From Anaerolineales bacterium (GTDB lineage Bacteria > Chloroflexota > Anaerolineae > Anaerolineales > Villigracilaceae): a DNA stretch of 64,000 nt. A program made the translations under genes and the position numbers. The stretch lies in the NCBI GenBank assembly GCA_024710905.1, contig JANJTV010000012.1, positions 62,001 to 126,000 of the forward strand, given 5' to 3'. Below the pieces are notes generated by a model. It was not told the origin of the DNA. It did no database searches and worked only from the letters and a program-made list of their open reading frames with translations. Shown here in pieces: positions 850 to 59,480 of this stretch (its first letter is position 1; every line of letters starts with the position of its first letter).

Positions 850-878
850 TTGACCTGTGTGGCGACTGCCTATACAAT
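850..878 (+). promoter_or_regulatory. Promoter of the glycosidase gene, leaderless geometry
   Basis: TTGACC (850-855) and TACAAT (873-878) are separated by 17 bases, each matching the sigma-70 consensus in five of six positions. The ATG at 885 follows the -10 by exactly six bases, so the expected first transcribed base is the A of the start codon. There is no Shine-Dalgarno site, consistent with a leaderless mRNA. Confidence 0.65.
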
Positions 879-884
879 GTAGCC

Positions 885-3266
885 ATGCGTGAATGGAATC
901 TGGGATTAAATGATCCATTGCACCTGGTGCTGGCAGCCGATGCCCGCCTGGGTGTTGTGGATTATGTGGATGATCACATCTGGGAGCTGGATATGACCAG
1001 CGGGGAGCCGCCCGCGCTGGATGTACGTACTACTTACGGGCTGCGAGCGCGGCTGATGCGCCTTTTTCCACGCTTCAGCGAAGGTGGCAAGTCTTATGCG
1101 AACCCAGCTGAGTTTGCCGCACCACCGCTGGTTCGGCGCATGTACCCCAACTTCATTGAAATAACTTTTTCTCCAATCGATGGCCTGGAGGTGGAAGCTG
1201 AATTCTGGGTGCCGGAGTCGCACGTTCTGGCCGGACGGTTTTCTGTCCACAACGAATCGGTTATCCCGCATGCTACCCAGTTCGAGCTGGTCGGCCAGCT
1301 GGTACCACTGGAAGGCGAAAGCATGTCTGTTATGCAGCGCCTTTCTGTCAGCACCCTGGAAGGTAAAGTTGGCGCTCTTTCTCCAGTCCTGTTCATGACC
1401 GGCGGCGCGGTCAGCGGGCAGGGACCTTACCCGGCCCTGATGCTTCCGCTTGACCTGGCGCCTGGCACATCCCGGCAGATTAGCTGGGCATTGGCCAGCC
1501 TGCCCGACCCGGCAGCCTCCTTTGACCTGGCTCGCCGGACGGCGGCCCGGCATATTGATGCCGAAAAGACCCGCATTGAGTTATTAAATAATAGCCAGAT
1601 GGTGGATATCCAGACCGGCGACCCGGATTGGGATGCAGCCCTGGCTTTCAGCCAACGGGCGGCATTCAGCTTGTTGATGCCTGCCTCCGAGAAATTGCCA
1701 CATACCAGTTTTGTGCTGGCGCGCGACCCGGACCGGGGCTATTCGCAGGCTGGTGATGGCAGTGACTACCAGCGTTTCTGGAGCGGCCAGCCGCCCCTGG
1801 AGGCGCTTTACCTGGCTTCGCTGCTGCCAATGGCCGGACAGTATGCCAGGGATTTCCTGCTAAATTTCCTGGCTGTTCAGGAGCAGGACGGTTTTATTGA
1901 CGCGAAACCTGGCTTGGCCGGGCAACGTACCCGTTTCATCGCTGCGCCTTATTTGTCCAGCCTGTCCTGGGAACTCTCCCGGTATGGCAAAGACAAAGCC
2001 TGGGTTGAAAAAACATACCCGCGCTTGCTGGCTTTCTTCCGTGCTTGGTTCTCACCTGTCCGTGACCAAGACCAGAACGGCCTGCCTGAGTGGCAGCATG
2101 TCTTGCAGACCGGTTTTGAGGAAAACCCGTTGTTTGACGGCTGGCATGCCTGGGCGCAGGGCGTGGATATCACCATGGTGCAAAGCCCGGCCCTCGGCGC
2201 GGCTTTATATCGAGAAGCGACCAGCCTGATTCATATGGCGGAATTGTTGGGCAAGATGGGCGATGCCAGCGAATTACGCAAACAGGCAGCGGCGCTGAAA
2301 CAGGAAGTGGAATCAAGCTGGGATAGCGATGGGGCGTTCTACCGTTATGCAGACCGTGATACCCACCTGAGCCAGCCCGGCAAATTGCTCAGTGATCGGC
2401 AGGCCCCCACAGAACTTGAGTTGAACAAAGAATTTAAAGCGCCGGTTCGCCTGCTCATCCGCATTTTTGGCGAGGGGGAGGCGCTTAAGCGTCCGCGTGT
2501 CAAGATTGCCGGGGAGATTTTTGGCGAGCAGGTAACTGAAACCCTCGACCGGCACGATTTTGATTTCAGTGCTACAGGTGCGGTGGCCACCAGCCGGAAA
2601 TTATTCACCCGCCTGGGGAATTTTGAATTTGACGGGCTGGGCCGCCGTGACCGATTGACCATCCAGACGGTTGACCTGACTGCTGCTGACCATACGTTGC
2701 TGCTTCCGCTCTGGGCGGGGATTCCCTACCCGCCCGAAGCCCGTGCCCTCGTCTACCGTACAATCCTAAATGCTGAGCGGTTTGATCATCCGTTTGGCAT
2801 TCCGGCAGTGCCGCGAGTGTTTTCCACCGAGGCTGACCCGGTTTGCCTGAGTGTACACATGCCTTGGAATGCCCTGATAGGGGAAGGGCTGCTGCATTAT
2901 GGCTATCGAGCGGAAGCCGCCCGCCTGGTGGCGCACGGCATGTCCGCAGTCATCCAGAGCTTGAAACGTACAAATGCTTTCTTTCGAACATACCATGCCG
3001 AAACCGGCGCGGGGCTTGGCGAGCGCAACACCTTGCATGGCTTGGCTCCCGTAGGATTATTCCTGAGAACCCTGGGCGTGGAGATTTTTTCACCATTGCA
3101 CGTACGCCTTTCAGGAGAGAATCCATTTCCCTGGCCGGTTACGGTAAAATATAGAGGGTTGATTGTGACACGTCAATTGCACCAGACCGAGGTGATTTTC
3201 CCCAACGGGCAATCTGCTGTTTTTGATGGCCCGGCCAATGTTACGGTCAATGGTGAGCAGGAGTAA
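885..3266 (+). CDS. Six-hairpin (alpha/alpha)6 glycosidase-like protein, GH63/MGH1/amylo-glucosidase type
   Basis: The 793-residue product lacks a signal peptide and is probably cytoplasmic. The N-terminal third looks like a beta-sandwich. The rest has the Trp/Asp-rich pattern of (alpha/alpha)6-barrel glycosidases such as GH63, mannosylglycerate hydrolase-like or amylo-alpha-1,6-glucosidase proteins. Around residues 390-410 a segment with DQDQNGLPEW followed by ENPLFDGW resembles their catalytic region. A short beta domain ends the chain. The substrate cannot be read from the sequence; an alpha-glucoside or mannoside is most likely. I chose ATG 885 over a TTG at 828 because the promoter spacing fits it. 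Two cyclic-di-AMP receptor-like genes follow after two bases and are probably co-transcribed. Confidence 0.7.
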   Translation: MREWNLGLNDPLHLVLAADARLGVVDYVDDHIWELDMTSGEPPALDVRTTYGLRARLMRLFPRFSEGGKSYANPAEFAAPPLVRRMYPNFIEITFSPIDGLEVEAEFWVPESHVLAGRFSVHNESVIPHATQFELVGQLVPLEGESMSVMQRLSVSTLEGKVGALSPVLFMTGGAVSGQGPYPALMLPLDLAPGTSRQISWALASLPDPAASFDLARRTAARHIDAEKTRIELLNNSQMVDIQTGDPDWDAALAFSQRAAFSLLMPASEKLPHTSFVLARDPDRGYSQAGDGSDYQRFWSGQPPLEALYLASLLPMAGQYARDFLLNFLAVQEQDGFIDAKPGLAGQRTRFIAAPYLSSLSWELSRYGKDKAWVEKTYPRLLAFFRAWFSPVRDQDQNGLPEWQHVLQTGFEENPLFDGWHAWAQGVDITMVQSPALGAALYREATSLIHMAELLGKMGDASELRKQAAALKQEVESSWDSDGAFYRYADRDTHLSQPGKLLSDRQAPTELELNKEFKAPVRLLIRIFGEGEALKRPRVKIAGEIFGEQVTETLDRHDFDFSATGAVATSRKLFTRLGNFEFDGLGRRDRLTIQTVDLTAADHTLLLPLWAGIPYPPEARALVYRTILNAERFDHPFGIPAVPRVFSTEADPVCLSVHMPWNALIGEGLLHYGYRAEAARLVAHGMSAVIQSLKRTNAFFRTYHAETGAGLGERNTLHGLAPVGLFLRTLGVEIFSPLHVRLSGENPFPWPVTVKYRGLIVTRQLHQTEVIFPNGQSAVFDGPANVTVNGEQE

Positions 3267-8708: not shown

Positions 8709-9449
8709 TTAAGAATTTCGTTCAAGGTAAGCCAGGTACAACGCCACCGAGCCAGCTACAGCGGCGTTGAGCGATTCGATTTTGCCCTGCATGGGCAGTT
8801 TCAGGATGAAATCACAGGATTTTCGTACCAGTGGGCGCATTCCCTCGCCCTCCGAGCCGACCACCAGTCCCAGGGCACCGCGCAGGGGTGACTTCCCCCC
8901 GGTCTTTTTCACTATTTCCCCGGCCTGGTCCAGCCCTGCGATCCAGACATCGTTTTCTTTTAATATCTCAATGGCCTGGGCAAGGTTCATCTGGCCGATG
9001 AGTAAATGTTCACTGGCCCCGCTGGATGCATTGACGACTGCCGGGGTGACCTCCACGGTGCGGGCTAGCGGGATGATGATGCCATGCACGCCGACAGCCT
9101 CCGCTGTGCGAATCAGCGTGCCGAAGTTTTGTGGGTCGTTCAGGGTATCGAGCAATAAAATGAACGGCGCTTCGCCCCGTTCGTGAGCCAGCCCGAGCAT
9201 TTCATCCAGCGACCGGTAAGGGTAGCCGCTGGCTTCCAGCACCACGCCCTGGTGATTCGGGTGGATTTTATCCAATCGGGGGCGCGATGCCTGCTCAATT
9301 TTGCACTTGTGTTGCTGTGCCAGGTTGACGATCTCTCCCAGGCGGCCTGTGTCCTGGATGTTTTCGGCCAGCAACAGGGAGAAAACCTGCCGTCGTTTGG
9401 CGCGCAGGGTTTCGTAAACGGCGTTGCGAGAATAGATGAATTCTTTCAT
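8709..9449 (-). CDS. rlmB: SpoU/TrmH-type rRNA 2'-O-methyltransferase (RlmB-like)
   Basis: The 246-residue protein has an N-terminal RNA-binding L30e-like domain (about 1-75) and a C-terminal SPOUT domain. The three SpoU motifs are seen as NDPQNFGTLIRTAEA, LGLVVGSEGEGM and LPMQGKIESLNAAVAGSVALY. The last two form the trefoil-knot SAM site. RlmB methylates the 2'-O of G2251 in 23S rRNA. Proximity to cysS is a frequently seen order for this family and supports the call over a tRNA-specific TrmH. It follows a small conserved gene, separated by a probable terminator. Confidence 0.88.
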   Translation of the reverse strand: MKEFIYSRNAVYETLRAKRRQVFSLLLAENIQDTGRLGEIVNLAQQHKCKIEQASRPRLDKIHPNHQGVVLEASGYPYRSLDEMLGLAHERGEAPFILLLDTLNDPQNFGTLIRTAEAVGVHGIIIPLARTVEVTPAVVNASSGASEHLLIGQMNLAQAIEILKENDVWIAGLDQAGEIVKKTGGKSPLRGALGLVVGSEGEGMRPLVRKSCDFILKLPMQGKIESLNAAVAGSVALYLAYLERNS

Positions 9450-9469
9450 GCAGGGGTATTTTACCTGTT

Positions 9470-15718: not shown

Positions 15719-16969
15719 TTAGTCGTACATGAATTTCTGTTTGCTCTCCCGCACCACTTCTTCTTTGAGTAATAATCCGAGGCGGGTCATCCCCTCGCGG
15801 ATGGTGTCGGGGTCCGGGTAGGAGAAATTGATGCGCATGGTGTTGTGACCGCCGCCAGTGGGGTGGAAGGCTGCTCCAGGTACAAAGGCCACTTTCCTTT
15901 CCAGGGCTTTTTTTAGGAGTTCGGCGGCGTCCATTTTTTCGGGCAGCACACCCCACAGGAACATGCCACCTTCGGGGCGTGTCCAGTGGACTTCACGGGG
16001 CCAGACCTCGTCCATGACTTCCAGCATGACATCCCGCCGTTCTTTGTAGGTGGCGCGGATGAGTTTGACATGTTCATTCAAGAAGCCGCCCTTGGCGACT
16101 TCGTAGGCTACAAACTGGCTGAGCGTGGAAGTGTGCAGGTCGGCGGCCTGCTTGGTCATTACCAGGCGGCGGATGACTTCGGGCGGGGCAATCACCCAGG
16201 CCAGCCGCAGGCCGGGGGCGAGCAGTTTCGAGAAAGTGCTCATATAAATAACGTTACCGCTGTAGTGCCCGCCGTTGGGGCCGCGGAAGTCGCTATCCAG
16301 TTTGACAACGGAGGGAATGTGCTCACCATCGTAACGCAGTTGGCCGTAGGGATCATCTTCGATCAGGGGGACGCCATATTTATCTGCCAGTTCGATCAGC
16401 TTTTTCCGGCGTTCCAGTGTCAGGGTGACGCCGCTGGGATTCTGGAAGTTGGGCAGGATGTAGATGAATTTCGGGCCAATGCGCAGGGCGGCTTCAAGTT
16501 CATCCACGACCATGCCGTGTTCATCGGAGCGTACAGAGATATATTGTGCGCCGTAGGCATTCCAGGCTTGCAGGGCACCTAGGTAGGTGGGCGATTCAAC
16601 GACGACATAATCTCCCCGGTTAATAAACAGTCGGCCGATAAAATCCAGCGCTTGCTGTGAACCGGAAGTGAGCATGATATTGTCGGCTGAAACTTCAATG
16701 CCGTAGCGGGCAGTGTGGCGGGCAATCATCTCGCGCAGGGGTTTATAGCCTTCGGTCGTGCCGTATTGCAGGGCTTGCGGCCCCTGTGTTTCAAGTACGG
16801 TGTTGCAAGCTTCGCGGAATTTTTCTATGGGGAAGACGGCCGGGGCGGGCAGCCCTCCGGCAAATGAGATGACGTCTGGTTGTTCGGTCAGTTTGAGTAA
16901 TTCTCGAATGACCGAGCTGCCCATTTTGCTGGCGCGGTGGGCATAACGATATTCCCAGGGTGTTTGCAT
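15719..16969 (-). CDS. PLP-dependent class I/II aminotransferase (2-aminoadipate/LysN-like)
   Basis: The 416-residue fold-type I enzyme has SISFAGGLPAP-like N-terminal residues, TSGSQQALD (cofactor phosphate site), NPSG with Asn177, Asp205 and Tyr208, and the Schiff-base Lys248 in STFSKLLAPGLR. The sequence groups with MocR-like/LysN 2-aminoadipate and aromatic aminotransferases without the DNA-binding domain. Donor and acceptor are not certain. AAGGAG lies just before the ATG. A minus-strand hairpin with a U-run sits about 35 bases upstream of the start. Confidence 0.9.
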   Translation of the reverse strand: MQTPWEYRYAHRASKMGSSVIRELLKLTEQPDVISFAGGLPAPAVFPIEKFREACNTVLETQGPQALQYGTTEGYKPLREMIARHTARYGIEVSADNIMLTSGSQQALDFIGRLFINRGDYVVVESPTYLGALQAWNAYGAQYISVRSDEHGMVVDELEAALRIGPKFIYILPNFQNPSGVTLTLERRKKLIELADKYGVPLIEDDPYGQLRYDGEHIPSVVKLDSDFRGPNGGHYSGNVIYMSTFSKLLAPGLRLAWVIAPPEVIRRLVMTKQAADLHTSTLSQFVAYEVAKGGFLNEHVKLIRATYKERRDVMLEVMDEVWPREVHWTRPEGGMFLWGVLPEKMDAAELLKKALERKVAFVPGAAFHPTGGGHNTMRINFSYPDPDTIREGMTRLGLLLKEEVVRESKQKFMYD

Positions 16970-24905: not shown

Positions 24906-24932
24906 TTGGCAGGAAAATTGTCTGGGTATAAT
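24906..24932 (+). promoter_or_regulatory. Promoter of the cyclase-ATPase gene
   Basis: TTGGCA (24906-24911) and TATAAT (24927-24932) have a 15-base spacer and a TGGG extension before the -10. The ATG follows the -10 by nine bases with no ribosome site, so the leader would be about two or three bases. Confidence 0.55.
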
Positions 24933-24941
24933 GATTGTATT

Positions 24942-27900
24942 ATGGGTAAATCCATTGAAGAGCAGATTGCTGAATTGAAGAATGCCCTGACGGTGCAGGA
25001 GAGCCTGCGCGGTCAGGTTGCCGACGATGTGCTTGCCATCATCCTGGCGACATTGCGTGGGCAGATCACTGAACTGGAACAGCAATACTTTGCCAATGAG
25101 CAGCGCCGTGTTGTCACAGTGATGTTTGCGGATATTTCCGGGTTTACCAGTTTTTCCGAGAAAAACGATGCCGAAGATGTCACCGAGACAATGAATCGCA
25201 TCTGGGAACGCCTGGATGGAAAGGTGCTGGAGGGCGGCGGGCAGATTGACAAGCATATTGGCGATGGAGTCATGGCCCTGTGGGGTGCAGACCTGGCCCG
25301 TGAAGACAACCCCGAGCAGGCGGTAATGGCTGCGCTGGCTATGCAAAACGAGCTGAAACAATTTTGTGCCGAGAACAAGATCGATCTCAGCATGCGAATT
25401 GGCATCAATACCGGCCCTGTGATTGTGGGCGGGGTAGGCACGATGGGCGAACGCACCGTGATGGGTGACGCAGTTAACCTGGCCAGTCGCCTTGAGAAGG
25501 CCGCTGCGCCGGGCAGTATTTTGATATCCCATGATACTTTCCGCCAGGTGCGCGGCGTTTTTGATGTCATTCCCCAGCCACCGCTCGAAGTCAAGGGCAA
25601 AAGTGAGCCGGTTCAAACCTATGTGATTGAACGGGCCCGCGAACGTATTTTCCGACTACCTGCGCGTGGTATTGAGGGGATCGAAACACGCATGATAGGC
25701 CGTGACGAGGAATTATCGCGCATCCAGCAGGCTGTCGAGTTGGTTGCAAGCGGCGGTGGTGCGCAGATGTTGACCGTTGTCGGCGAAGCCGGGATCGGTA
25801 AAAGCCGCCTGTTGTATGAGTTTGATAAGTGGCTCGATCTTTCCCCTTTTGATACGTATTATTTCAAAGGTCGCGCCACCCTGCAAATGCGCTCCACGCC
25901 ATACTTCCTGCTCCGCGATTTGTTTGCCCACCGGTTTGGCATCCTTGAGAGCGACTCGGTTGAAGCGGTTAAACATAAATTGCAATCCGAGTTTGGTTAC
26001 ATCCTGACGGAAGAAAGCCAGTTCAAAGCCCAGGTGATTGCAACCGTGTTGGGCTATGATTTTTCACAAAGCCCGCTCATCCGCGAGATTTGCGGGGATG
26101 TGGAACTGCTCCGGCGGCGGGCTTTGCATTTTATGGGGGAGTATTTCCAGAAGCTTGGCCAGCACAACCCGGTTTTGATTATCCTGGAAGATATTCACTG
26201 GGCAGATCGGCCTTCCCTGGCAGCCATTCGTGGCCTGCTTTCAGGTTATCCCCAACTGCCAATCTTGTTCCTCTGCCTGGCGCGGCCCGCCTTGTATGAA
26301 ACCGAAAAGGATTGGGATGAGATCCTCCCCGGCCAGCAACGCATTGACCTGCGCCCGCTGGATGCGCAACAGAGCCATGTGTTGGTGCGGGAGATCCTGC
26401 AACGTATTGAAAACCTGCCTGCTGACCTGTCTGACCTGATCGTCCGAAATGCGGATGGCAACCCGTTCTATGTGGAGGAGCTGATTAAGGTTTTGCTGGA
26501 AGATGACATCATCCAGCGTGGTGAGGAACACTGGCAGGTGGATGCCACCCGCCTGACCCGCCTGCGCATCCCATCCACTTTAACTGCTGTGTTGCAGGCA
26601 CGCCTCGATAACCTGCCGCCGGTTGAAAAAGTTCTGCTCCAGCGTGCTTCGGTCGTGGGGCGTATGTTCTGGGATGACACCGTCGAGTTGCTTTCCAATG
26701 ACATGGCCTCGCCCGCTGTCAAAGGTCACCTTTCTGCCTTAAGCCAACGCGAGTTAATCCACCAGCGACATCTTTCTGCTTTTGAAGGGGCGCATGAATA
26801 TGCTTTCAAACATGCCATCCTGCGTGACGTGACGTACGAAAGTGTGCTGAGGCGGGAACGCCGTGAATATCACCTGCGAGTGGCTGAATGGCTGGAACAG
26901 GCCACCCTGCGCAGCGGGCGTACATCTGAGTACCTCGACCTGATTGCCACGCATTTTGAGCAGGCCAACGAATTTGGTAAAGCAGCGGAATATCTCAGCC
27001 GCGCGGCGGAACACGCTTTCAGGCTGGCAGAATTTACCAGTGCCATGGAAACAGTTGATCATGCGATCAGCCTGGTTGACTCTTCGGCAGCGTTCAAACA
27101 ACAATTGGGTATGCTCCTGGTCCAGAAGGGCAACATCTACAGCGAGCGCGGCATGTATGTTGAAGCGCGCACCTGCCTGGAAGATGGTTTGAAGGTTGCC
27201 CGCCAGGTGCGCGACCAGAAAACCATTGCCAAGGCGCTTGGCCATCTGGGGCGCATCAACAATTGGCTGGGCAACTACGAACTTTCAAAACAGGAACTGC
27301 TGGAAGCCTATGAGATTGTCCAGCAGCAAGGCGATCTTGCCGGGTGGATTTTCGTCTCCCGCCAGTTGGGGAATGTTTCGATCACCAGCGGGCAGCACGA
27401 GGAAGCGGTACGCTATCTCGAGGAGAGTCTTGGCCTGGCCCAGAACGAGCAAGACCTGGATTCGGCCGCGGCGGCCCTCAATAGCCTGGGTGAAAATGCC
27501 TATGCTGTGGGTGAATTCGACCCGGCGCTCGGTTTTTACGAACAGGCCTACGAACTGGCATGTAAAGTGGGCAATCGCAGTGATATGGCGATGATACGCA
27601 CCAATATGGGGATGATTTACCTGCAACGCGACGATACCCTGGCCTGCCAGCGTTTTACCAGCGAGGCCTTGGAACTGGCGCGCGCCATTGAAAGCCTGTG
27701 GATGACGGCCTCCGCCCTGCACGTACTGGGGACGATTGCTATACGCCGGGGGGATGAAAAGACCGCGTTGGCGCACTTGCACGAAGCCACCCGATTGACC
27801 CGCCAGATTGGCAGCGAAGCCTTCCTTACCTCCCTGCTGCCAGATTATGCCGTCATCTTGGCCAGGCGCGGGCAGCACGAACAGGCCATTCAACTAATCG

Positions 27901-28058
27901 CGCTGGCGTTGGCTCACCCGGCCTGTGAATCAGATACCCGCCTTGAAATCGAACGCATCCTCTCTCACTGGCCGCCTGAAAGCCGCGCCCAATTGGAAGA
28001 GACGACTGCCAATCCGCAGGCGTTATTACAGGAAATTGATACCCTTCTTGGTCTGTAA
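24942..28058 (+). CDS. Class III nucleotidyl cyclase with AAA-type ATPase and TPR domains
   Basis: The 1038-residue regulator has a short coiled-coil start (about 5-50), a class III cyclase domain (about 55-230), a STAND/AAA ATPase (about 255-540) and roughly ten TPR-like repeats to the end. Cyclase metal residues Asp64 (FADISGFT) and Asp108 (GDGVMALWG) and transition-state Asn180 and Arg184 are present, so it should be active. The Walker A loop is GEAGIGKS at 282-289. This layout is common in Chloroflexota and Actinobacteria and resembles mammalian soluble adenylyl cyclase. The signal sensed is unknown. Confidence 0.9.
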   Translation: MGKSIEEQIAELKNALTVQESLRGQVADDVLAIILATLRGQITELEQQYFANEQRRVVTVMFADISGFTSFSEKNDAEDVTETMNRIWERLDGKVLEGGGQIDKHIGDGVMALWGADLAREDNPEQAVMAALAMQNELKQFCAENKIDLSMRIGINTGPVIVGGVGTMGERTVMGDAVNLASRLEKAAAPGSILISHDTFRQVRGVFDVIPQPPLEVKGKSEPVQTYVIERARERIFRLPARGIEGIETRMIGRDEELSRIQQAVELVASGGGAQMLTVVGEAGIGKSRLLYEFDKWLDLSPFDTYYFKGRATLQMRSTPYFLLRDLFAHRFGILESDSVEAVKHKLQSEFGYILTEESQFKAQVIATVLGYDFSQSPLIREICGDVELLRRRALHFMGEYFQKLGQHNPVLIILEDIHWADRPSLAAIRGLLSGYPQLPILFLCLARPALYETEKDWDEILPGQQRIDLRPLDAQQSHVLVREILQRIENLPADLSDLIVRNADGNPFYVEELIKVLLEDDIIQRGEEHWQVDATRLTRLRIPSTLTAVLQARLDNLPPVEKVLLQRASVVGRMFWDDTVELLSNDMASPAVKGHLSALSQRELIHQRHLSAFEGAHEYAFKHAILRDVTYESVLRRERREYHLRVAEWLEQATLRSGRTSEYLDLIATHFEQANEFGKAAEYLSRAAEHAFRLAEFTSAMETVDHAISLVDSSAAFKQQLGMLLVQKGNIYSERGMYVEARTCLEDGLKVARQVRDQKTIAKALGHLGRINNWLGNYELSKQELLEAYEIVQQQGDLAGWIFVSRQLGNVSITSGQHEEAVRYLEESLGLAQNEQDLDSAAAALNSLGENAYAVGEFDPALGFYEQAYELACKVGNRSDMAMIRTNMGMIYLQRDDTLACQRFTSEALELARAIESLWMTASALHVLGTIAIRRGDEKTALAHLHEATRLTRQIGSEAFLTSLLPDYAVILARRGQHEQAIQLIALALAHPACESDTRLEIERILSHWPPESRAQLEETTANPQALLQEIDTLLGL

Positions 28059-35549: not shown

Positions 35550-36470
35550 TTATCCCACCTGTGTCACAATCACATGCCTAGCCCCGGCCAGGCGCAGCGC
35601 CCCGGCAATGACCGGGGCGTTTTTATTGTCGGCCAGGGCAATCATGTTGCCGCCGCGCCCGCCGCCGCTCAGTTTGGCCCCGGCTGCGCCTGCTGCCAAC
35701 GCGGCCTGTACCAGCACGTCCAGTTCGTTGCAGGAGACGGTCATTTCCTGCAACAGGGTGTGGTTGGCGTTCATCAGCGGACCGAGGGCGGGGATGTCGC
35801 CGGTTTCGATGGCGCTGCGCGCGGACCGGGCGATTTCGCCCACCTTGTTGAAGATCTGCTCCCAGCGTTGGGGGTCTGCCTGCCACAGGCTGCGTACGTC
35901 GCCAACCGATTCTTTGGTCGGCGCGGGCAGGCCGGTGTTGCCGATCACAATCGTAAATGGCTGTGCAACATGGAAGGTCTGGATGGGCTGGTCTTTGAGG
36001 TAATACACCGGGCTGGCGTAGGTGATGACGGTGTTGTCAATACCGGAGGGCGTTCCGTGCAGAAGTTTCTCGGTCTCATAGGCCAGCTGGTTGGTTAGTT
36101 CATTGTTGATGGGATGTGAGCAGTATTCTGCCAGCGCGCGAATCAAGGCCACGCTGACCGCTGCGCCGGAGCCCAGACCGGAGGCAACCGGGATGCTGGA
36201 TTGGACATCGATTTCGATGTTTTTGACTGAATCCACACCCAGGGCGATCAGGGTACTGGTAACAGTGGCGCGCAGCGGGTGGGCCTGCGGCAGTGATCCC
36301 AGCTCTGCATGCAGGTCAATGCCCGGGGCGTGAATCCAGATGCCAGCACGGGATGACCCTTTAATTTCCACATTCGCCTGCACCTGAGTGACAGGCACGG
36401 CCAGGGCCGGACGGCCATACACCACGGAGTGTTCGCCAAACAGGATGATTTTTCCCGGGGCGGCGCTCAT
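35550..36470 (-). CDS. mvk: Mevalonate kinase
   Basis: The 306-residue GHMP kinase has PGKIILFGEHSVVYGRPA at 5-22 (motif 1), PVASGLGSGAAVSVALIRAL (ATP loop), HGTPSGIDN with catalytic Asp145 and KLSGGGRGGNMIAL (motif 3). It phosphorylates mevalonate for isoprenoid synthesis. The Met at 36470 overlaps the stop of the UbiA gene by four bases, so the pair is translationally coupled. A 13-codon longer form would lie in the upstream gene. Confidence 0.93.
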   Translation of the reverse strand: MSAAPGKIILFGEHSVVYGRPALAVPVTQVQANVEIKGSSRAGIWIHAPGIDLHAELGSLPQAHPLRATVTSTLIALGVDSVKNIEIDVQSSIPVASGLGSGAAVSVALIRALAEYCSHPINNELTNQLAYETEKLLHGTPSGIDNTVITYASPVYYLKDQPIQTFHVAQPFTIVIGNTGLPAPTKESVGDVRSLWQADPQRWEQIFNKVGEIARSARSAIETGDIPALGPLMNANHTLLQEMTVSCNELDVLVQAALAAGAAGAKLSGGGRGGNMIALADNKNAPVIAGALRLAGARHVIVTQVG

Positions 36471-37339
36471 GCCAGGAAGTAAAAGACAATCAGCACGGTG
36501 ATGCCGCAAAGCAGTATCGATGCTTGCAGCGGTCGATCTGAGAGTAACACTTCTTCTGGCGCGCCTGCCTCGTGCGTGACCTGAATCAGGTACAGGTAGC
36601 GGAAGATGCCGTAAACCACGAATGGAATGGTCAGCATCATGCTGTGGTTGCTGGGCAGGTTGGGGGCGCTAAAGGTGTAAAGCGAATAGGCCACGATGGT
36701 GGTCGCTGAGACAATGGTGATGTACTGGTCGAGCAGGGGGATGGTGTAGCCTTCGAGTACTTTTCGGTGTGAGCCTGCACCTTTGGCCAGCAGGGCCAGT
36801 TCGGCGCGGCGTTTGCCAAAGCCCAGGTAAAGCGAGAGCAGGGTGGTGACGACCAGCAGCCAGGGCGAGAAACGTTCCACAGTGATGAGTGTGACGCCTG
36901 CTTCAACACGCAGCACGAACCCGGCGGCAATCACCAGCACATCAATGATCGGGATGTGCTTAAGCCATTTGGTGTAGGCAAGGTTAATGACCAGGTAGGC
37001 TGCCAGTACCCCGCAGAACCACGGCGAAAGCCACCAGGCCAGCGGCAGGCTGACGAGAATCAAGAAAATCGCCGCGCTCCAGGCGAGATTCACGGGCAGT
37101 AGGCCTGACGGCAGCGGACGGCTTTTCTTGTTCGGGTGCTGGCGGTCGGCTTCCAGATCGGCGATGTCGTTGATGATGTAAACCGTGCTGGAAACCAGGC
37201 AGAACAGGGCAAAGCCCGCCAGGGTGCGCAGAAACGGCTCGAACAGGAAGAGTTGCTGGTCGAAAATCAGCGCCAGGAAGACAAAACCGTTCTTCGTCCA
37301 CTGGCGAGGACGCATGGTTTTTACAAGGGCACTTAACAT
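36467..37339 (-). CDS. UbiA-family prenyltransferase (decaprenyl-phosphate phosphoribosyltransferase-like)
   Basis: The 290-residue protein has eight or nine membrane helices and the aspartate-rich NDIADLEADRQHP at 57-69, with KKSRPLPSG after it. These features, and the N-terminal MRPRQWTKN, are typical of 5-phosphoribosyl-1-pyrophosphate:decaprenyl-phosphate transferases (Rv3806c-like), the first step in polyprenyl-phosphoryl-arabinose formation. The coupled mevalonate kinase would supply the isoprenoid. The start is preceded by a -10 box at six bases. Confidence 0.88.
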   Translation of the reverse strand: MLSALVKTMRPRQWTKNGFVFLALIFDQQLFLFEPFLRTLAGFALFCLVSSTVYIINDIADLEADRQHPNKKSRPLPSGLLPVNLAWSAAIFLILVSLPLAWWLSPWFCGVLAAYLVINLAYTKWLKHIPIIDVLVIAAGFVLRVEAGVTLITVERFSPWLLVVTTLLSLYLGFGKRRAELALLAKGAGSHRKVLEGYTIPLLDQYITIVSATTIVAYSLYTFSAPNLPSNHSMMLTIPFVVYGIFRYLYLIQVTHEAGAPEEVLLSDRPLQASILLCGITVLIVFYFLA

Positions 37340-37345
37340 GCGGGT

Positions 37346-37351
37346 ATTTTA
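37346..37351 (-). promoter_or_regulatory. -10 element of the UbiA gene, leaderless geometry
   Basis: TAAAAT on the minus strand ends six bases before the ATG at 37339. No ribosome site is possible in this gap. It is back to back with the tlyA promoter in the 54-base intergenic region. Confidence 0.5.
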
Positions 37352-37381
37352 CCTGATGTTCTGCAGGTACAACCCTCGGGG

Positions 37382-37387
37382 TACAAT
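37382..37387 (+). promoter_or_regulatory. -10 element of tlyA, leaderless geometry
   Basis: TACAAT ends exactly six bases before the ATG at 37394. The -35 region (37359-37364, TTCTGC) is a weak match at 17-base spacing. Confidence 0.5.
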
Positions 37388-37393
37388 GGGCGC

Positions 37394-38173
37394 ATGGCAA
37401 AAGTTCGTCTGGATGTTCTGCTGGTGGAGCGTGGCCTGGCCGAGAGTCGCAGTAAGGCGCAGGCCATCATCATGGCCGGGCAGGCGCGGGTGAACGGGCA
37501 AATGGTGGATAAAGTGGCCGCCCTGCTGGATGCTGATGCGACTGTTTCGGTGGAGGCGGGCCCGCGATATGTCTCGCGCGGGGGCGAGAAGCTGGAAGGG
37601 GCGCTGGCGGTTTTCCCCGTCCACACGGAGGGCAAAACCTGTGTGGATGTCGGCGCCTCGACGGGCGGCTTCACCGACTGCCTGCTGCAATATGGCGCGG
37701 CAAAGGTCTATGCCATTGATGTTGGCAAGGGCATCTTGCACTGGAAGTTGCGCACAGATGCGCGCGTGGTGGTGATGGAAGAAACCAACGCCCGCTTTGT
37801 GGAGCAATTGCCGGAACCAATCCAACTGGTGGTTTGCGATGCATCTTTTATTTCGTTAAGGGTTTTGTTGCCGGTGATGCAAAAATGGCTGGACGCAACA
37901 GGTGAGGCAATTGTCTTGGTCAAACCGCAATTCGAGGCCGGGCGCAAGGAATCAGCAAAACACAAAGGTGTGATTCGCGACCCGCTGGTGCACCGGCAGG
38001 TGCTACTGGATGTGCTCGGTTTTGCTATGGAAAGCGGGTTTGGCCTGTGCGGGTTGGAGCGTTCCCCGTTATTGGGGCCGAAGGGGAATGTCGAATTCCT
38101 GGCCTGGCTAAATGTGCGCCCGAACCTAAATGACCCGGTTGAGCTGGTTGCAAGAATTATCCCCGAAATTTAG
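37394..38173 (+). CDS. tlyA: TlyA family rRNA 2'-O-methyltransferase/hemolysin-like protein
   Basis: The 259-residue protein has an N-terminal S4 RNA-binding domain (about 5-62; RLDVLLVERGLAESRSKAQAIIMAGQARVNG) and an FtsJ-like methyltransferase domain with VDVGASTGGFTDCLLQYGA (SAM motif), VCDASFISL and LVKPQFEAGR. Mycobacterial TlyA methylates 16S and 23S rRNA and sets capreomycin sensitivity. It has no ribosome site. The 3' end overlaps the convergent CDF gene by four bases. Confidence 0.92.
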   Translation: MAKVRLDVLLVERGLAESRSKAQAIIMAGQARVNGQMVDKVAALLDADATVSVEAGPRYVSRGGEKLEGALAVFPVHTEGKTCVDVGASTGGFTDCLLQYGAAKVYAIDVGKGILHWKLRTDARVVVMEETNARFVEQLPEPIQLVVCDASFISLRVLLPVMQKWLDATGEAIVLVKPQFEAGRKESAKHKGVIRDPLVHRQVLLDVLGFAMESGFGLCGLERSPLLGPKGNVEFLAWLNVRPNLNDPVELVARIIPEI

Positions 38174-39144
38174 TTGTCGTAAAACTGCTGTTCGTAGGTA
38201 CTGACCATGCGCCGCGACTCGGCCAGGATTTCATCAATGCTCATATCCTTGCGGTGAGTTTCAGCCGGATGATAATGAACATGTACCCGCCGTACATTGG
38301 GCAGTTGGGTGCACAGCGCTTCTTCGGCCTGGCTGGCAATCGCATCCCCCTTGTGAACCGAGAAATTCCCGTTAATCCCAATCGTAATGTTAATCACCAC
38401 ATGTGGTCCAAAACGGTGGGCCTGCATTTCTTCCAATTGGTCGACTCCAGGCACGCTCATCAGCACCCTGCGTACCTGTTCGGCCAGTTCGCGGCTGGGG
38501 ATGGCATCCATTAATTCTACAGATGATTCCCTGAGGATGTAAATCCCCGTCCTCAGGATGAGCAGCGCCACCAGGGCGCCCGCCAGTGGGTCCACCCAGG
38601 GCAGGCCGCGCTGGCCGAGGAAAATCCCCAGGCTGGCAGCCGAGGCCGAGAACAGGTCATTGCGGTGGTCAAATGCCAGTGCCATGACCACCGGGTTTTG
38701 TGTTTCGCGTCCCAGGCGCTGTACATACCAGGTCAAGACGATTTTCAAGCCCACGGTTCCAAGCGCCACCCATAACGCTAGCGGGGAAGCCCCGCTGAAA
38801 CCGGCCATCCCGCCCTGCAACATGTCCCAGATTTTATCGACCGCATCCCAGAAAACTGCTGCGGCGGTTGCTACTACAAAAGCCCCGACGACAACCGAGG
38901 CGATGCTTTCCAATTGCCTGTGGCCATACGGGTGCTCATTGTCGGCGGGTTTACTCGCCAGCCGCATGAAAATACTTGCCACAATGTAATAGGCCACATC
39001 GGAGGTGGAATTGATCCCCTCTGCCAGCAGGGCCGGGCTGTGGCTGGTAATGCCCACCACGGTTTTAATCCCGGCCAGTAGGATGTTGCTCCCCAACCCC
39101 AGGTTGACAGCCCACAGGCTTTTTGTGTCGCGTTCGTGGCTCAT
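38170..39144 (-). CDS. Cation diffusion facilitator (CDF) family transporter
   Basis: The product of about 324 residues has six membrane helices and a C-terminal cytoplasmic ferredoxin-like domain. HPYGHRQLESIASVVVGA follows helix II, and ALAFDHRNDLFSASAASLG in helix V contains the His-Asn-Asp metal site. The C-terminal RVHVHYHPAE is His-rich. It exports divalent metals such as zinc, iron or manganese. I prefer the Met at 39144, because TACAAT ends six bases upstream; a Met nine codons earlier has no ribosome site. Confidence 0.88.
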   Translation of the reverse strand: MSHERDTKSLWAVNLGLGSNILLAGIKTVVGITSHSPALLAEGINSTSDVAYYIVASIFMRLASKPADNEHPYGHRQLESIASVVVGAFVVATAAAVFWDAVDKIWDMLQGGMAGFSGASPLALWVALGTVGLKIVLTWYVQRLGRETQNPVVMALAFDHRNDLFSASAASLGIFLGQRGLPWVDPLAGALVALLILRTGIYILRESSVELMDAIPSRELAEQVRRVLMSVPGVDQLEEMQAHRFGPHVVINITIGINGNFSVHKGDAIASQAEEALCTQLPNVRRVHVHYHPAETHRKDMSIDEILAESRRMVSTYEQQFYDN

Positions 39145-39150
39145 GAATTG

Positions 39151-39156
39151 ATTGTA
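39151..39156 (-). promoter_or_regulatory. -10 element of the CDF gene, leaderless geometry
   Basis: TACAAT on the minus strand ends six bases before ATG 39144. The -35 position carries a poor match (TTACAA, spacer 17). Confidence 0.45.
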
Positions 39157-39215: not shown

Positions 39216-39221
39216 TATAAT
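39216..39221 (+). promoter_or_regulatory. -10 element of the zinc-ribbon gene
   Basis: A perfect TATAAT ends eight bases before ATG 39230, giving a leader of one or two bases at most. The -35 is weak. Confidence 0.45.
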
Positions 39222-39229
39222 TGGCGGCG

Positions 39230-39634
39230 ATGAACTGTCCGAAGTGTTCAACAGCATTGGTGATCAAGTATTACAAAGGCATGCTGGAAGTGGAAAGTTG
39301 CCCGGCCTGCCGTGGCATGTGGCTGGAGATTCACGAATTGGACCGGCTGGAGGATGTAGCGTTTAGTGAAGATGCCCGCAAGGGGTCTTTAATCCATGAA
39401 AGCCGCCTGACGAAATTTCCATGCCCGCATTGTGAATCTCCTCTGCATGAATTCACCTATCGCCTGTATGACCTGCATTTGGATGGCTGCCCAAATCATC
39501 ACGGCTTCTGGCTGGATGGTGGCGAAGATGAGCGGGTGATTGAAATTATGCGCGCCCGTTCTGCCAGCCTGAATCGCCCTCCCGAAGCGGAGTGGCAGGA
39601 AGTGTTGAGAAATCTGGTGGCATTTTTCCGATGA
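39230..39634 (+). CDS. Double zinc-ribbon (zf-TFIIB type) protein
   Basis: The 134-residue protein has two zinc-ribbon units. The first is CPKC...CPACRGMWLE near residues 3-36, the second CPHC...CPNHHGFWLDGGE near 67-100, in which His replaces one ligand Cys. Proteins with this TFIIB-like finger are common in bacteria and have no assigned role. The ATG at 39230 is favoured over a TTG nine bases upstream. The stop overlaps the next start (ATGA). Confidence 0.85.
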   Translation: MNCPKCSTALVIKYYKGMLEVESCPACRGMWLEIHELDRLEDVAFSEDARKGSLIHESRLTKFPCPHCESPLHEFTYRLYDLHLDGCPNHHGFWLDGGEDERVIEIMRARSASLNRPPEAEWQEVLRNLVAFFR

Positions 39635-47927: not shown

Positions 47928-47943
47928 TAAAATCACGCCCGTC

Positions 47944-50061
47944 ATGAATGAACCCAGCCTTTTAGACTACCTGAAATCAAAATTATCCCCCTGGCAGACG
48001 GAAGAACTAGACCTTCCGGATATAGTGGAAGAAGAACCGGCTGGCTCTCCCCGGCCGGCTTCCGTTCTCTCCAAATACAGCTCGCTGAAAGACCTGCCCT
48101 GGCGAACAATTTTTGCCTTTGCCCTGGCCCTGTTTGGCCAGCGTTTGCTCGAACCGCCTGTGGAGAGTTATTTCGTCCCGGCAGGCTATTACCTGCTGGC
48201 AGTCATTGTGCTAGGGTGGGCTCTTGCTGCCAGGGAACTGCGCCTGCCCGATACTGTGGAACAAAGCGAAGCCGAAGACCCGCTAACCCTGCGCCGCAAC
48301 TGGTTTATTGCTGCCATGCTGTTTTCAGTGCTGGCCTTTGTGTTTTTTACCAACAATCTGTTCAGCACACTAAATGTCAGTCTGTGGCTGGCAGCCATCA
48401 CCTGCCTGGTGATTTCATTGACAATAACAGATTGGCGTGCCAACCTCGCTGCAGCAGGCGCATTCTTCACCCGCCCGTACTGGAGCCTCCCGGTTACACG
48501 CTGGGGAGTGCTGCTCCTGGCGGTTTTTGCCGTGGCGGCATTTTTCCGTTTTTACGACCTGACTGGTACGCCGGCCGAACCGTTTAGCGACCACGCTGAG
48601 AAACTGTTGGATGTCTATAACGTCACGCAGGGGCAGAGCAATATCTTTTTTGTTCGCAATACTGGCCGCGAATTCCTCCAGATGTACTGGACGGCTTTTG
48701 TGGGTTGGGCTTCCGGAACAGGCATTTCTTTCATGAGCCTGAAGCTGGGTACCGCCCTGCTTGGCTTCTTTGCCCTGCCATTCATCTATATGCTCGGGCG
48801 AGACCTGTTCAACCGCCGGGTGGGTTTGTTTGCCCTGTTGCTCTCGGGCATGGCCTACTGGCTGAATGTCACCAGCCGGGTGGGGTTACGCTTTCCGCTA
48901 TTCCCGGCCTTTACTGCCCCGGTTTTATTCTTCATCTTGCGCGGCCTGCGTAACCAGAATCGCAATGATTTCATCTGGGCCGGCTTGTTTTTAGGGCTCG
49001 GCCTGCATGGTTACAGTTCTTTCCGTATTGTGCCGTTTGTTGTAGCAGCAGCCATCCTGCTTTACCTGATCCATACCCATTCGGTGATACAGCGTCGCCA
49101 GGCCGTGTTGCTGCTGGCTGTGGTTGCATTGGCGGCCTTCCTGGTTTTCCTGCCATTGCTGCGGGTGATGATCGAGATGCCGGACATGGTTCTTTACCGT
49201 GCCATGACCCGCATTGCTGAGACGGAAAGACCCTTGCCTGGCCCGGCCTGGCAGATTTTGCTTGAAAACATCGGCAAATCGATGCTGATGATGAATGTAG
49301 ACAACGGTATCATCTGGGTTCATTCCGTACCACTCCGCCCGGCATTGGATGTCGTTTCGGGTGTGTTTTTTGCGTTTGGTTACCTGATGTTGTTTGTTCG
49401 CTACCTGCGAAAACGGGATTGGTTGGATCTGTTTCTGTTATTGGCCGTCCCCATGTTGATGCTGTCTTCTTCGCTTTCGCTGGCCTTCCCTGAAGAGAAT
49501 CCCTCGCTCAACCGTTCTGGCGGAGCAGCAATTGTTGTCTTTCTCATCGCCGCGCTGGCGCTGGATGGCCTGTATTCCGCACTTCGTGAGTCCGCTTCCC
49601 GCTGGGGCAGGGGTATGGCGTTTGGACTGGTGGGATTCCTGCTGGTCTGGTCCGGCTACCAGAATTACGACCTCGTCCTAAATCAATACAGTTCCATTTT
49701 TCGTTACAGCGCGTGGAATACATCTGAAATGGGCCGTGTGATTACGGCCTTTGAAGCGGCGGGCAACAGCCTGGAGAATGCTTTTGTAGTGCCGTACCCG
49801 CACTGGGTGGATACGCGCCTGGTGGGGGTGTGGGCAGGTTACCCGACCCGCGATTTTGCCCTGTGGCGGGAACAACTGGGCATGGTGCAAAACCTGCCCG
49901 GCGGAAAGATGTTCCTGGTAAAGGAAGACGACACCGAGACATTGGATGTCTTGCGCGCCTTATACCCAAACGGTTCTTATAGTCTTTATAATTCAAGGAC
50001 GCCGGGTAAAAATTTCTGGATCGTGTTTGTGCCGCCAGCCGGTGTCCCGGCCCTGCCATAG
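47944..50061 (+). CDS. GT-C/GT39-like polytopic membrane protein
   Basis: The 705-residue product starts with a soluble acidic stretch of about 45 residues, then some 14 helices. FYDLTGTPAEPFSDHAEKLLDVYNV after the helix near residue 190 has the Asp-His acidic motif of GT39 (PMT-like) transferases, followed by FSVRNTGREFLQMYWTA-like residues and GRDLFNRRVGLFALLLSGMAYW. It should use a polyprenyl-phosphate sugar outside the membrane. TAAAAT lies ten bases before the ATG and no ribosome site is seen. Confidence 0.78.
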   Translation: MNEPSLLDYLKSKLSPWQTEELDLPDIVEEEPAGSPRPASVLSKYSSLKDLPWRTIFAFALALFGQRLLEPPVESYFVPAGYYLLAVIVLGWALAARELRLPDTVEQSEAEDPLTLRRNWFIAAMLFSVLAFVFFTNNLFSTLNVSLWLAAITCLVISLTITDWRANLAAAGAFFTRPYWSLPVTRWGVLLLAVFAVAAFFRFYDLTGTPAEPFSDHAEKLLDVYNVTQGQSNIFFVRNTGREFLQMYWTAFVGWASGTGISFMSLKLGTALLGFFALPFIYMLGRDLFNRRVGLFALLLSGMAYWLNVTSRVGLRFPLFPAFTAPVLFFILRGLRNQNRNDFIWAGLFLGLGLHGYSSFRIVPFVVAAAILLYLIHTHSVIQRRQAVLLLAVVALAAFLVFLPLLRVMIEMPDMVLYRAMTRIAETERPLPGPAWQILLENIGKSMLMMNVDNGIIWVHSVPLRPALDVVSGVFFAFGYLMLFVRYLRKRDWLDLFLLLAVPMLMLSSSLSLAFPEENPSLNRSGGAAIVVFLIAALALDGLYSALRESASRWGRGMAFGLVGFLLVWSGYQNYDLVLNQYSSIFRYSAWNTSEMGRVITAFEAAGNSLENAFVVPYPHWVDTRLVGVWAGYPTRDFALWREQLGMVQNLPGGKMFLVKEDDTETLDVLRALYPNGSYSLYNSRTPGKNFWIVFVPPAGVPALP

Positions 50062-57761: not shown

Positions 57762-57767
57762 TACAAT
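57762..57767 (+). promoter_or_regulatory. -10 element with leaderless geometry
   Basis: TACAAT ends exactly six bases before ATG 57774. A -35 is not evident. It offers an internal promoter for the membrane protein, cmk and plsC genes. Confidence 0.4.
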
Positions 57768-57773
57768 ACACAA

Positions 57774-59480
57774 ATGCCGGAAAAAACATCGACTACACAA
57801 TTTTCGAATGAACGGATACTGCTGGCGCTGGCCTTTGGCCTGGCGCTGGCCTTGCGATTGCTGCGCCTGGGCGAAATGCCACTTTCTGATGAAGAAGCAG
57901 GCTGGGCTTTGCAGGCATTGGATGTCAGCCAGGGATTGCGGCCTGAAATTGGCCATAACCCCGCCTATGTATTATTGACGGCGCTGGCATTTTTCTTTTT
58001 TCAGGCCAGTGATTTCACTGCCCGGCTCATCCCTGCTTTGGCAGGCAGCCTGCTGGTGCTAGCCCCGCTTTTCTTTACAGACCAACTGGGGCGCCGCGCG
58101 GCGGTTGTCCTGGCATTTTTACTGGCCGTAGAGCCGGGTTTGTTGGCACTCTCTCGGCAGGCAGGCGGTCTGATGCTGGCGCTGACCACCGCGGTCTTTG
58201 CCCTGGGATTTTGGAAAGCTGGCCGCCGGGAGTGGGCTGGCGCGTTGACTGGCCTGGCGTTGCTTTCTGGTCCATTCCTGTGGGCGGGCTTGCTGATTGG
58301 CCTGCTGGCGGTGTTACTGTCTAACCTGGTACAGGGGCGTTCGTTCCGCATCAGGACAGATCGAGAGTCCTGGCAGCCATTTGGCATCGCGCTTGTGGCA
58401 ACCTATCTGTTCCTGGGGAGCTTGTTCCTGTTCGCTCCCGGCGGTTTGGGCGCTGGTTTGCTGGCATTGCCATCTTACCTGGTGGGTTGGGTTTCTTTTT
58501 CCGATGTCTCCATGATGACCTTGTTGGCTGCCCTACCCGCCTATGCCATGCTGGCCCTGGTTTTCGGGCTGATCGGCATGGTACGTGGCCTGTTGGTGCA
58601 AGATAAAGTTGTTACTGCTGTGTCAATCTTCCTGCTGTCTGCCCTGGTGGTGACGCTCGGATATCCCTCCCGCCAGGTGGGCGACCTGGCCTGGGTGCTG
58701 CTCCCGTTGTGGGCGCTGGCAGCCATTGAGATTGAAAAATATATCCGCCCCGCGCAAGATGGTTTCTGGGAGACGATGGGCATGTTTGCTCTGTCAACCG
58801 CCATGCTCTTTTTTGCCGGGCTGAATTTTATGACCATTGCCAATATTCCGTTGGATGATACTTCCCTGACCCTGCGCTGGCTGGCTTTTTTCGGGGCCAT
58901 TGCCTTGCTGCTTATCAGTGCTGTGCTGGTGGCGGGTGGCTGGTCGATTCAGATTGCTGTACAGGGTACAGCCTGGGGCTTCCTGGTCGTTTTGCTTGTA
59001 TACACCCTTGCAGTGGGCACAGGTGCGGCGCAACTACGCACCCACACAACGGTTTCCATGTGGCCGCGCGGCCCGCAGGTGGTGCAACCTCGCCTGTTGG
59101 AGCAGCACCTGGGTGAACTGGCGCGCTGGAAGGTTGGCGTGCCAGGCGGCTTGGATGTCCGCATGGTGGCAGTCAATTCTCCGGCCATGCGCTGGGCTTT
59201 ACGAGACTGGGATGTAACCGAATCCAGCGCACCAAGTACGGATTCATCCCCAGCGTTTGTGATTACACCGGTCAATTACCCGACCCTCGAACTGGAAGCA
59301 GGCTACCGCGGCACAGACTTGGTCTGGCGGCGCTACGCTTCCTGGGAGGCAGCCCTGCCAATCGACTGGCTGCGCTGGTTTGCCCTCCGTGAATTGCCGC
59401 AGGTGGATGAACAGGTTATCTTGTGGGTCCGCACAGATATATTTGTCGATTCGCAAAATAACCCTCAGGACACCCAATGA
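57774..59480 (+). CDS. GT39-like membrane protein (TIGR03663-like)
   Basis: The 568-residue product has about 12 helices. LRLGEMPLSDEEAGWALQALDVSQG after the first helix carries the Asp-Glu-Glu motif of GT39/ArnT-like enzymes, and later the HNPAYVLLTALAFFFFQASDFTARLIPALAGSLLVLAPLFF region matches the second and third helices of that family. A soluble domain follows residue 420. Proteins of this type are often found next to DUF2298 genes in Chloroflexota and archaea. The stop overlaps cmk by four bases. Confidence 0.78.
   Translation: MPEKTSTTQFSNERILLALAFGLALALRLLRLGEMPLSDEEAGWALQALDVSQGLRPEIGHNPAYVLLTALAFFFFQASDFTARLIPALAGSLLVLAPLFFTDQLGRRAAVVLAFLLAVEPGLLALSRQAGGLMLALTTAVFALGFWKAGRREWAGALTGLALLSGPFLWAGLLIGLLAVLLSNLVQGRSFRIRTDRESWQPFGIALVATYLFLGSLFLFAPGGLGAGLLALPSYLVGWVSFSDVSMMTLLAALPAYAMLALVFGLIGMVRGLLVQDKVVTAVSIFLLSALVVTLGYPSRQVGDLAWVLLPLWALAAIEIEKYIRPAQDGFWETMGMFALSTAMLFFAGLNFMTIANIPLDDTSLTLRWLAFFGAIALLLISAVLVAGGWSIQIAVQGTAWGFLVVLLVYTLAVGTGAAQLRTHTTVSMWPRGPQVVQPRLLEQHLGELARWKVGVPGGLDVRMVAVNSPAMRWALRDWDVTESSAPSTDSSPAFVITPVNYPTLELEAGYRGTDLVWRRYASWEAALPIDWLRWFALRELPQVDEQVILWVRTDIFVDSQNNPQDTQ

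Follow-up and report, generated by a model that had tools for sequence, protein, structure and literature searches.

Five genes in the analysed DNA are preceded by a −10-like hexamer that ends exactly six bases before the ATG. The same spacing forms a sharp peak in the genome as a whole, and the motif is conserved in the orthologues of all five genes, less strictly for the gene at 57774. The hexamers are best read, with a probability of about 0.86, as −10 elements of sigma-70-type promoters that lie one discriminator length before the ATG and would give leaderless mRNAs. The geometry, the peak and the conservation were read directly from the DNA; the transcript 5′ ends, the sigma factor and the mode of translation are what we infer from them.

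The window, that is, the whole stretch of 64 000 bases analysed here, comprises bases 62001–126000 of contig C40 of a draft genome (3.43 Mb, 154 contigs). The genome record gives a contamination of 6.84%. The five hexamers reported in a first-pass annotation, at 885(+), 37339(−), 37394(+), 39144(−) and 57774(+), were all read in the sequence at the claimed distance (Table 1): TACAAT in four cases and TAAAAT at 37339(−). The TTGACC −35 element claimed for the 885 promoter was read off in the same way.

Table 1. Genes, promoter elements and candidate sites in the window, with positions counted from its first base.
Feature	Position	Strand	Remark
−35 element TTGACC	850–855	+	17 bases before −10 of 885 gene
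−10 element TACAAT	873–878	+	6 bases before ATG 885
MGH1-like glycoside hydrolase domain gene, predicted leaderless	885–3266	+	793 aa, ATG; Pfam PF22422
TAAAAT, extra candidate	9458–9463	−	8 bases before ATG 9449; gene 8709–9449
TATAAT	24927–24932	+	9 bases before ATG 24942; adenylate cyclase/AAA/TPR gene 24942–28058
UbiA-family prenyltransferase gene, predicted leaderless	36467–37339	−	PF01040
Divergent intergenic region	37340–37393		54 bp; both promoters predicted leaderless
−10 element TAAAAT	37346–37351	−	6 bases before ATG 37339
−10 element TACAAT	37382–37387	+	6 bases before ATG 37394
tlyA-like gene (S4 + FtsJ methyltransferase), predicted leaderless	37394–38173	+	PF01728/PF01479
Cation-efflux family transporter gene, predicted leaderless	38170–39144	−	PF01545/PF16916
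−10 element TACAAT	39151–39156	−	6 bases before ATG 39144
TATAAT, uncertain	39216–39221	+	8 bases before ATG 39230; Zn-ribbon TFIIB protein gene 39230–39634
TAAAAT, weak case	47928–47933	+	10 bases before ATG 47944; PMT_2 family gene 47944–50061
−10 element TACAAT	57762–57767	+	6 bases before ATG 57774
Gene of 568-aa protein, predicted leaderless	57774–59480	+	no Pfam match

Spacing of TANAAT to start codons

Gene starts were collected from a sample of 853 kb (the window and 40 further stretches; 715 gene starts, about a quarter of the genome) with a home-made caller that was blind to upstream motifs and that set the start of the 37339 gene wrongly. The strict class was defined as genes with TANAAT 6–7 bases before the start (n=42 in this sample). 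Spacings between TANAAT and ATG in the sample were also counted without gene calls, and for the whole genome the matches at spacing 6 were compared with those at the frame-matched spacing of 15. Contig C62 of the same genome (156 870 bases), of which only the first half is in the sample, gave a mirror-symmetric list of TANAATN6ATG matches, which suggests an inverted duplication or a palindromic assembly artefact.

When the regions upstream of 189 gene starts were shuffled with retention of dinucleotides, 0.40 TANAAT hexamers were obtained at distance 6, so that about 0.11 would be expected for the roughly 52 genes of the window; 5 were found (P(≥5) about 1×10−7). The corresponding shuffle control gave 18 observed cases against a mean of 0.9 and a maximum of 4 in 50 shuffles. 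Before the 715 starts of the sample, TANAAT occurred in 30, 12, 9 and 4 genes at 6, 7, 8 and 9 bases, respectively, over a background of about 2.4 per position (mean of spacings 12–29). The gene-call-free scan yielded 50, 31 and 23 matches at 6, 7 and 8 bases against a background of about 14. In the whole genome 168 matches were counted at spacing 6 and 49 at spacing 15. A reversed-pattern control (24 against 168) was kept but judged too lenient, because the same hexamer at other spacings gives the higher baseline, and spacing 15 was used instead. The genome-wide count by distance proposed in the first-pass annotation accordingly has its sharp peak at six bases, and this peak holds against spacing, frame, hexamer-permutation and shuffle controls. 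On the basis of the sampled part of the genome (roughly a quarter), the class is estimated at some 6–8% of genes (about 190–250, or one in fifteen) and some 10% of first genes, for which “sizeable”, the word chosen earlier, is fair if the size is understood as moderate.

Conservation among relatives

The orthologues share ancestry, and the counts that follow therefore indicate constraint and are not independent trials: TANAAT precedes the 885 gene by exactly 6 bases in 22 of 28 orthologues (24/28 at 6–7, 27/28 at 6–9), tlyA in 62 of 79 (a further 4 at 7 bases, hence 66/79 at 6–7), ubiA in 55 of 66 relatives, the efflux gene at 39144 in 8 of 11 (the other 3 at 7 bases, hence 11/11 at 6–7), and the 57774 gene, with starts picked motif-blind, in 10 of 27 (6/27 at 7, 19/27 at 6–9). 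As a control, the SD-led gene at 16969(−) was treated likewise; TANAAT was found in 0/25 of its orthologues and a Shine–Dalgarno (SD) site in 23/25. The N termini of the 885 orthologues begin at the same ATG, and (T)TTGACC recurs at the −35 place in most of the 28. The closest relatives of tlyA are almost all from Anaerolineae/Anaerolineales or from other Chloroflexota assemblies, which places the window's organism among the uncultured Anaerolineae (Chloroflexota). At one tlyA locus (L020) the unit of hexamer and spacing lies a few codons further upstream, where it precedes an earlier in-frame ATG.

Gaps of 8–10 bases had also been noted before 24942, 39230 and 47944, and were measured as 9, 8 and 10 bases, but only for the first of these genes is the motif kept in most relatives. 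The 24942 gene is predicted to be leaderless or to have a leader of about 3 nt, as supported by its homologues, 8/11 of which carry TANAAT at 6–9 bases. Several paralogues of its adenylate cyclase/AAA/TPR protein (24942–28058) are encoded in the same genome (C53:68238–72177, C49, C151, C40:48149), at least two of them close together on C53. The motif was found in only 2/15 orthologues of the 47944 gene, itself included. The Zn-ribbon gene (39230–39634) looks near-leaderless here, as against SD-led in most relatives (orthologues L220–L235): 9/16 are SD-led and only 2/16, 39230 itself included, have TANAAT at 7–8 bases. This suggests that a start-proximal promoter may have been gained in the lineage of the window's organism. 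One additional candidate, at 9449(−), was absent from the list of the first-pass annotation.

In the family of the window's organism, the excess of spacing 6 over spacing 15 was 2.7-fold when summed over 13 genomes (range 1.8–4.4), whereas the sums for other groups gave 1.1–1.7-fold. Single genomes of other Anaerolineae families ranged from no excess to 3.6, and in high-GC families TANAAT is too rare for a verdict. The class is therefore strongest in the window's family and not uniform over the phylum, and a phylum-wide leaderless class was rejected.

Readings of the start-proximal hexamer

If the hexamers are promoters of leaderless mRNAs, an RNA polymerase with a sigma-70-type factor would recognise the −10 element, aided by a −35 element or by an upstream G, and would begin transcription 6–7 bases past it, at the A of ATG or within 1–2 bases. 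The mRNA would have neither a 5′ leader nor an SD site, and 70S ribosomes would bind its 5′-terminal AUG. Recognition of the −10 element has the sequence and its conservation behind it; the start site and the ribosome step are taken over from established biology (PMC9031893) and from Deinococcus-Thermus (PMC12340547). Genes of this class would mostly be the first in their transcription unit. TANAAT at 6–7 bases was found before 28/362 first-like starts and 6/271 operon-internal starts; the operon test on tlyA relatives gave a trend only (p=0.06). G is enriched directly before the hexamer, a feature also of extended −10 promoters, and −35 elements are weak overall, with at least four of six matches in 15/51 cases against about 8.5 expected.

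An SD 4-mer was detected in 0/42 strict cases and in 47% of the non-TA genes of the sample. This absence is partly mechanical, since an SD site would have to lie where the −10 hexamer stands, and as an independent proof of a leaderless class it was rejected. The earlier statement that most other genes of the window have an SD site was not confirmed: 18 of the 50 window genes scored by the strict 4-mer test have one, and in the larger sample 47% of the non-TA genes. The anti-SD sequence of the 16S rRNA (CCTCC) is intact, which points to a promoter class and not to a loss of SD translation; together with the SD 4-mers of the other genes it implies that two classes of start coexist.

Transcription might instead begin 1–4 bases upstream of the ATG and give very short leaders, which we regard as rather unlikely. 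The enrichment extends to spacings of 7, 8 and 9 bases, and the spacing shifts between 6 and 9 among orthologues, so that leaders of 1–3 nt are possible for those at 7–9 bases; six is nevertheless the most frequent spacing, both in the sample and in each orthologue set that is well conserved. The sequence around the start also fits initiation at the A. A pyrimidine stands at −1 in 35/42 strict cases as compared with 183/316 other first genes (p=0.001), a pattern to be expected of transcription that starts at the A of ATG. The start codon is ATG in 42/42 strict cases as compared with 271/316 other first genes (p=0.005); this figure is affected by the ATG bias of the home-made caller, which leaves the gene-call-free scan untouched, and in that scan of the 853 kb sample no such spacing peak was found before GTG or TTG.

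That the hexamer belongs to a real but secondary promoter, with the main transcript coming from upstream and bearing a normal leader, is improbable. The sequence alone is compatible with upstream promoters, and a long same-strand frame ends just upstream in 11/66 TA-led tlyA loci, but a leadered transcript without an SD site would be poorly equipped, and the ubiA/tlyA gaps of 27–46 bp leave no room for another intergenic promoter.

It is very improbable that the hexamer acts as an A/U-rich translation enhancer within a leader. A-rich sequence ahead of start codons is common, and in the whole genome A is enriched at −12 to −7 before starts; the peak at a single spacing is nevertheless specific to TANAAT and was not seen with the altered hexamers TAANAT and TGNAAT (gene-call-free scan, 853 kb sample), the enriched upstream G resembles that of extended −10 promoters, and with the 885 gene TTGACC is conserved together with the hexamer at 17 bases. 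Chance, or misannotated start codons with the true starts downstream behind SD sites of their own, has a negligible probability: AT-rich hexamers abound between genes, but this reading is already contradicted by the 5 cases in the window against 0.11 expected, orthologous proteins share the start codon, and a downstream SD-led alternative start was found in 0/51 cases.

Leaderless genes are known in other bacteria, and the predicted leaderless class is of this known kind and had already been predicted for Chloroflexi; what is added here is good orthologue evidence. Zheng et al. 2011 (PMC3160421) predicted leaderless genes in 4/12 Chloroflexi genomes (4.0–5.7% of genes) and described a TAtaaT pattern in medium-GC groups. 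Signal and position of their TA-led genes, as given in the accessible part of that paper, are identical to those found here: a −10-like motif whose first T lies about 12 bp ahead of the start, in excess of shuffles, a lack of SD sites that is here partly forced by the hexamer position, and a strong AUG preference. Anaerolineae are not named in that part, nor were conservation at the orthologue level or doubly leaderless divergent pairs found in it. In Deinococcus-Thermus, a −10 element adjoining the ORF has been tested experimentally and drives leaderless mRNA, with an optional −35 element that stimulates at about 17 bp (PMC12340547, 2025). The position directly upstream of the ORF is the same here, where it is known from sequence; the Deinococcus-Thermus class, in another phylum, covers about 30% of ORFs with a loose TANNNT, as compared with some 6–8% and a fuller TANAAT.

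Anaerolineae are abundant and mostly uncultured. Literature searches found no transcript-start maps for them. A leaderless class of this size would alter the annotation of starts and promoters in Anaerolineae, since callers that rely on SD sites will put some of its starts in the wrong place. The tlyA, ubiA, 885-type and efflux genes offer a conserved set for testing leaderless expression in cultured Anaerolineales.

Divergent gene pairs

In 66 relatives tlyA is preceded by a divergently oriented ubiA-like gene, and in 50 of these TANAAT stands exactly 6 bases before the start of either gene (both at 6–8 in 56/66). The ATG-to-ATG gap ranges from 27 bp to more than 1 kb; in many Anaerolineales (loci L023–L084) it is 27–46 bp with back-to-back −10 elements, and in 22 relatives it is exactly 29 bp with the layout CAT-N6-ATTTTA-N5-TACAAT-N6-ATG. 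Given such short gaps with both −10 elements at 6 bases, the two core promoters must overlap in many relatives, and in the 29-bp layout a −35 element at 17–18 bases from either −10 element would have to fall on or inside the start codon of the opposite gene. Judged from this geometry, one polymerase should exclude the other in the 29-bp form.

We propose tentatively that Anaerolineales carry interlocked, doubly leaderless divergent promoters, with ATGs down to 27–35 bp apart, each −10 element at 6 bases and each −35 element on or inside the first codons of the opposite gene. Initiation would then be mutually exclusive, and the opposing promoter would put a constraint on the early codons; ubiA/tlyA is the conserved example. 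This arrangement is the least expected part of the analysis; a narrow literature search found no description of doubly leaderless divergent pairs. In the bidirectional promoters of E. coli described by Warman, Grainger and colleagues (PMC12825309), a pseudo-symmetric −10 element is shared and the starts are 18, 10 or 23 bp apart. As in those promoters, the divergent ubiA/tlyA promoters are so close that polymerase would occupy one orientation at a time. Unlike them, they have a −10 element each (with 5 bp between the two in the 29-bp form), and the predicted transcription starts, each at a start codon, lie about 30 bp or more from one another. Classification of ubiA/tlyA as a bidirectional promoter in that sense was rejected, as no −10 element is shared, but the two may work alike through mutual exclusion.

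Compact divergent spacing would be a consequence of leaderless starts, with gaps down to 27–29 bp in relatives of ubiA/tlyA: loss of the leader would let two opposite promoters fit into about 30 bp. In the genome of the window, TA-led starts accounted for 18/46 starts in divergent gaps below 100 bp and for 7/102 in gaps of at least 150 bp (p=4×10−6), whereas control spacings gave 3–4/46 and 3/102, respectively. The simplest reason for this concentration in short gaps is that a leaderless gene needs less room. Further compact divergent pairs (39–62 bp) were found in the same genome at L098:5924–5964, L092:18740–18803 and L120:9165–9228; in each of them both starts have a −10 element 6–9 bases upstream.
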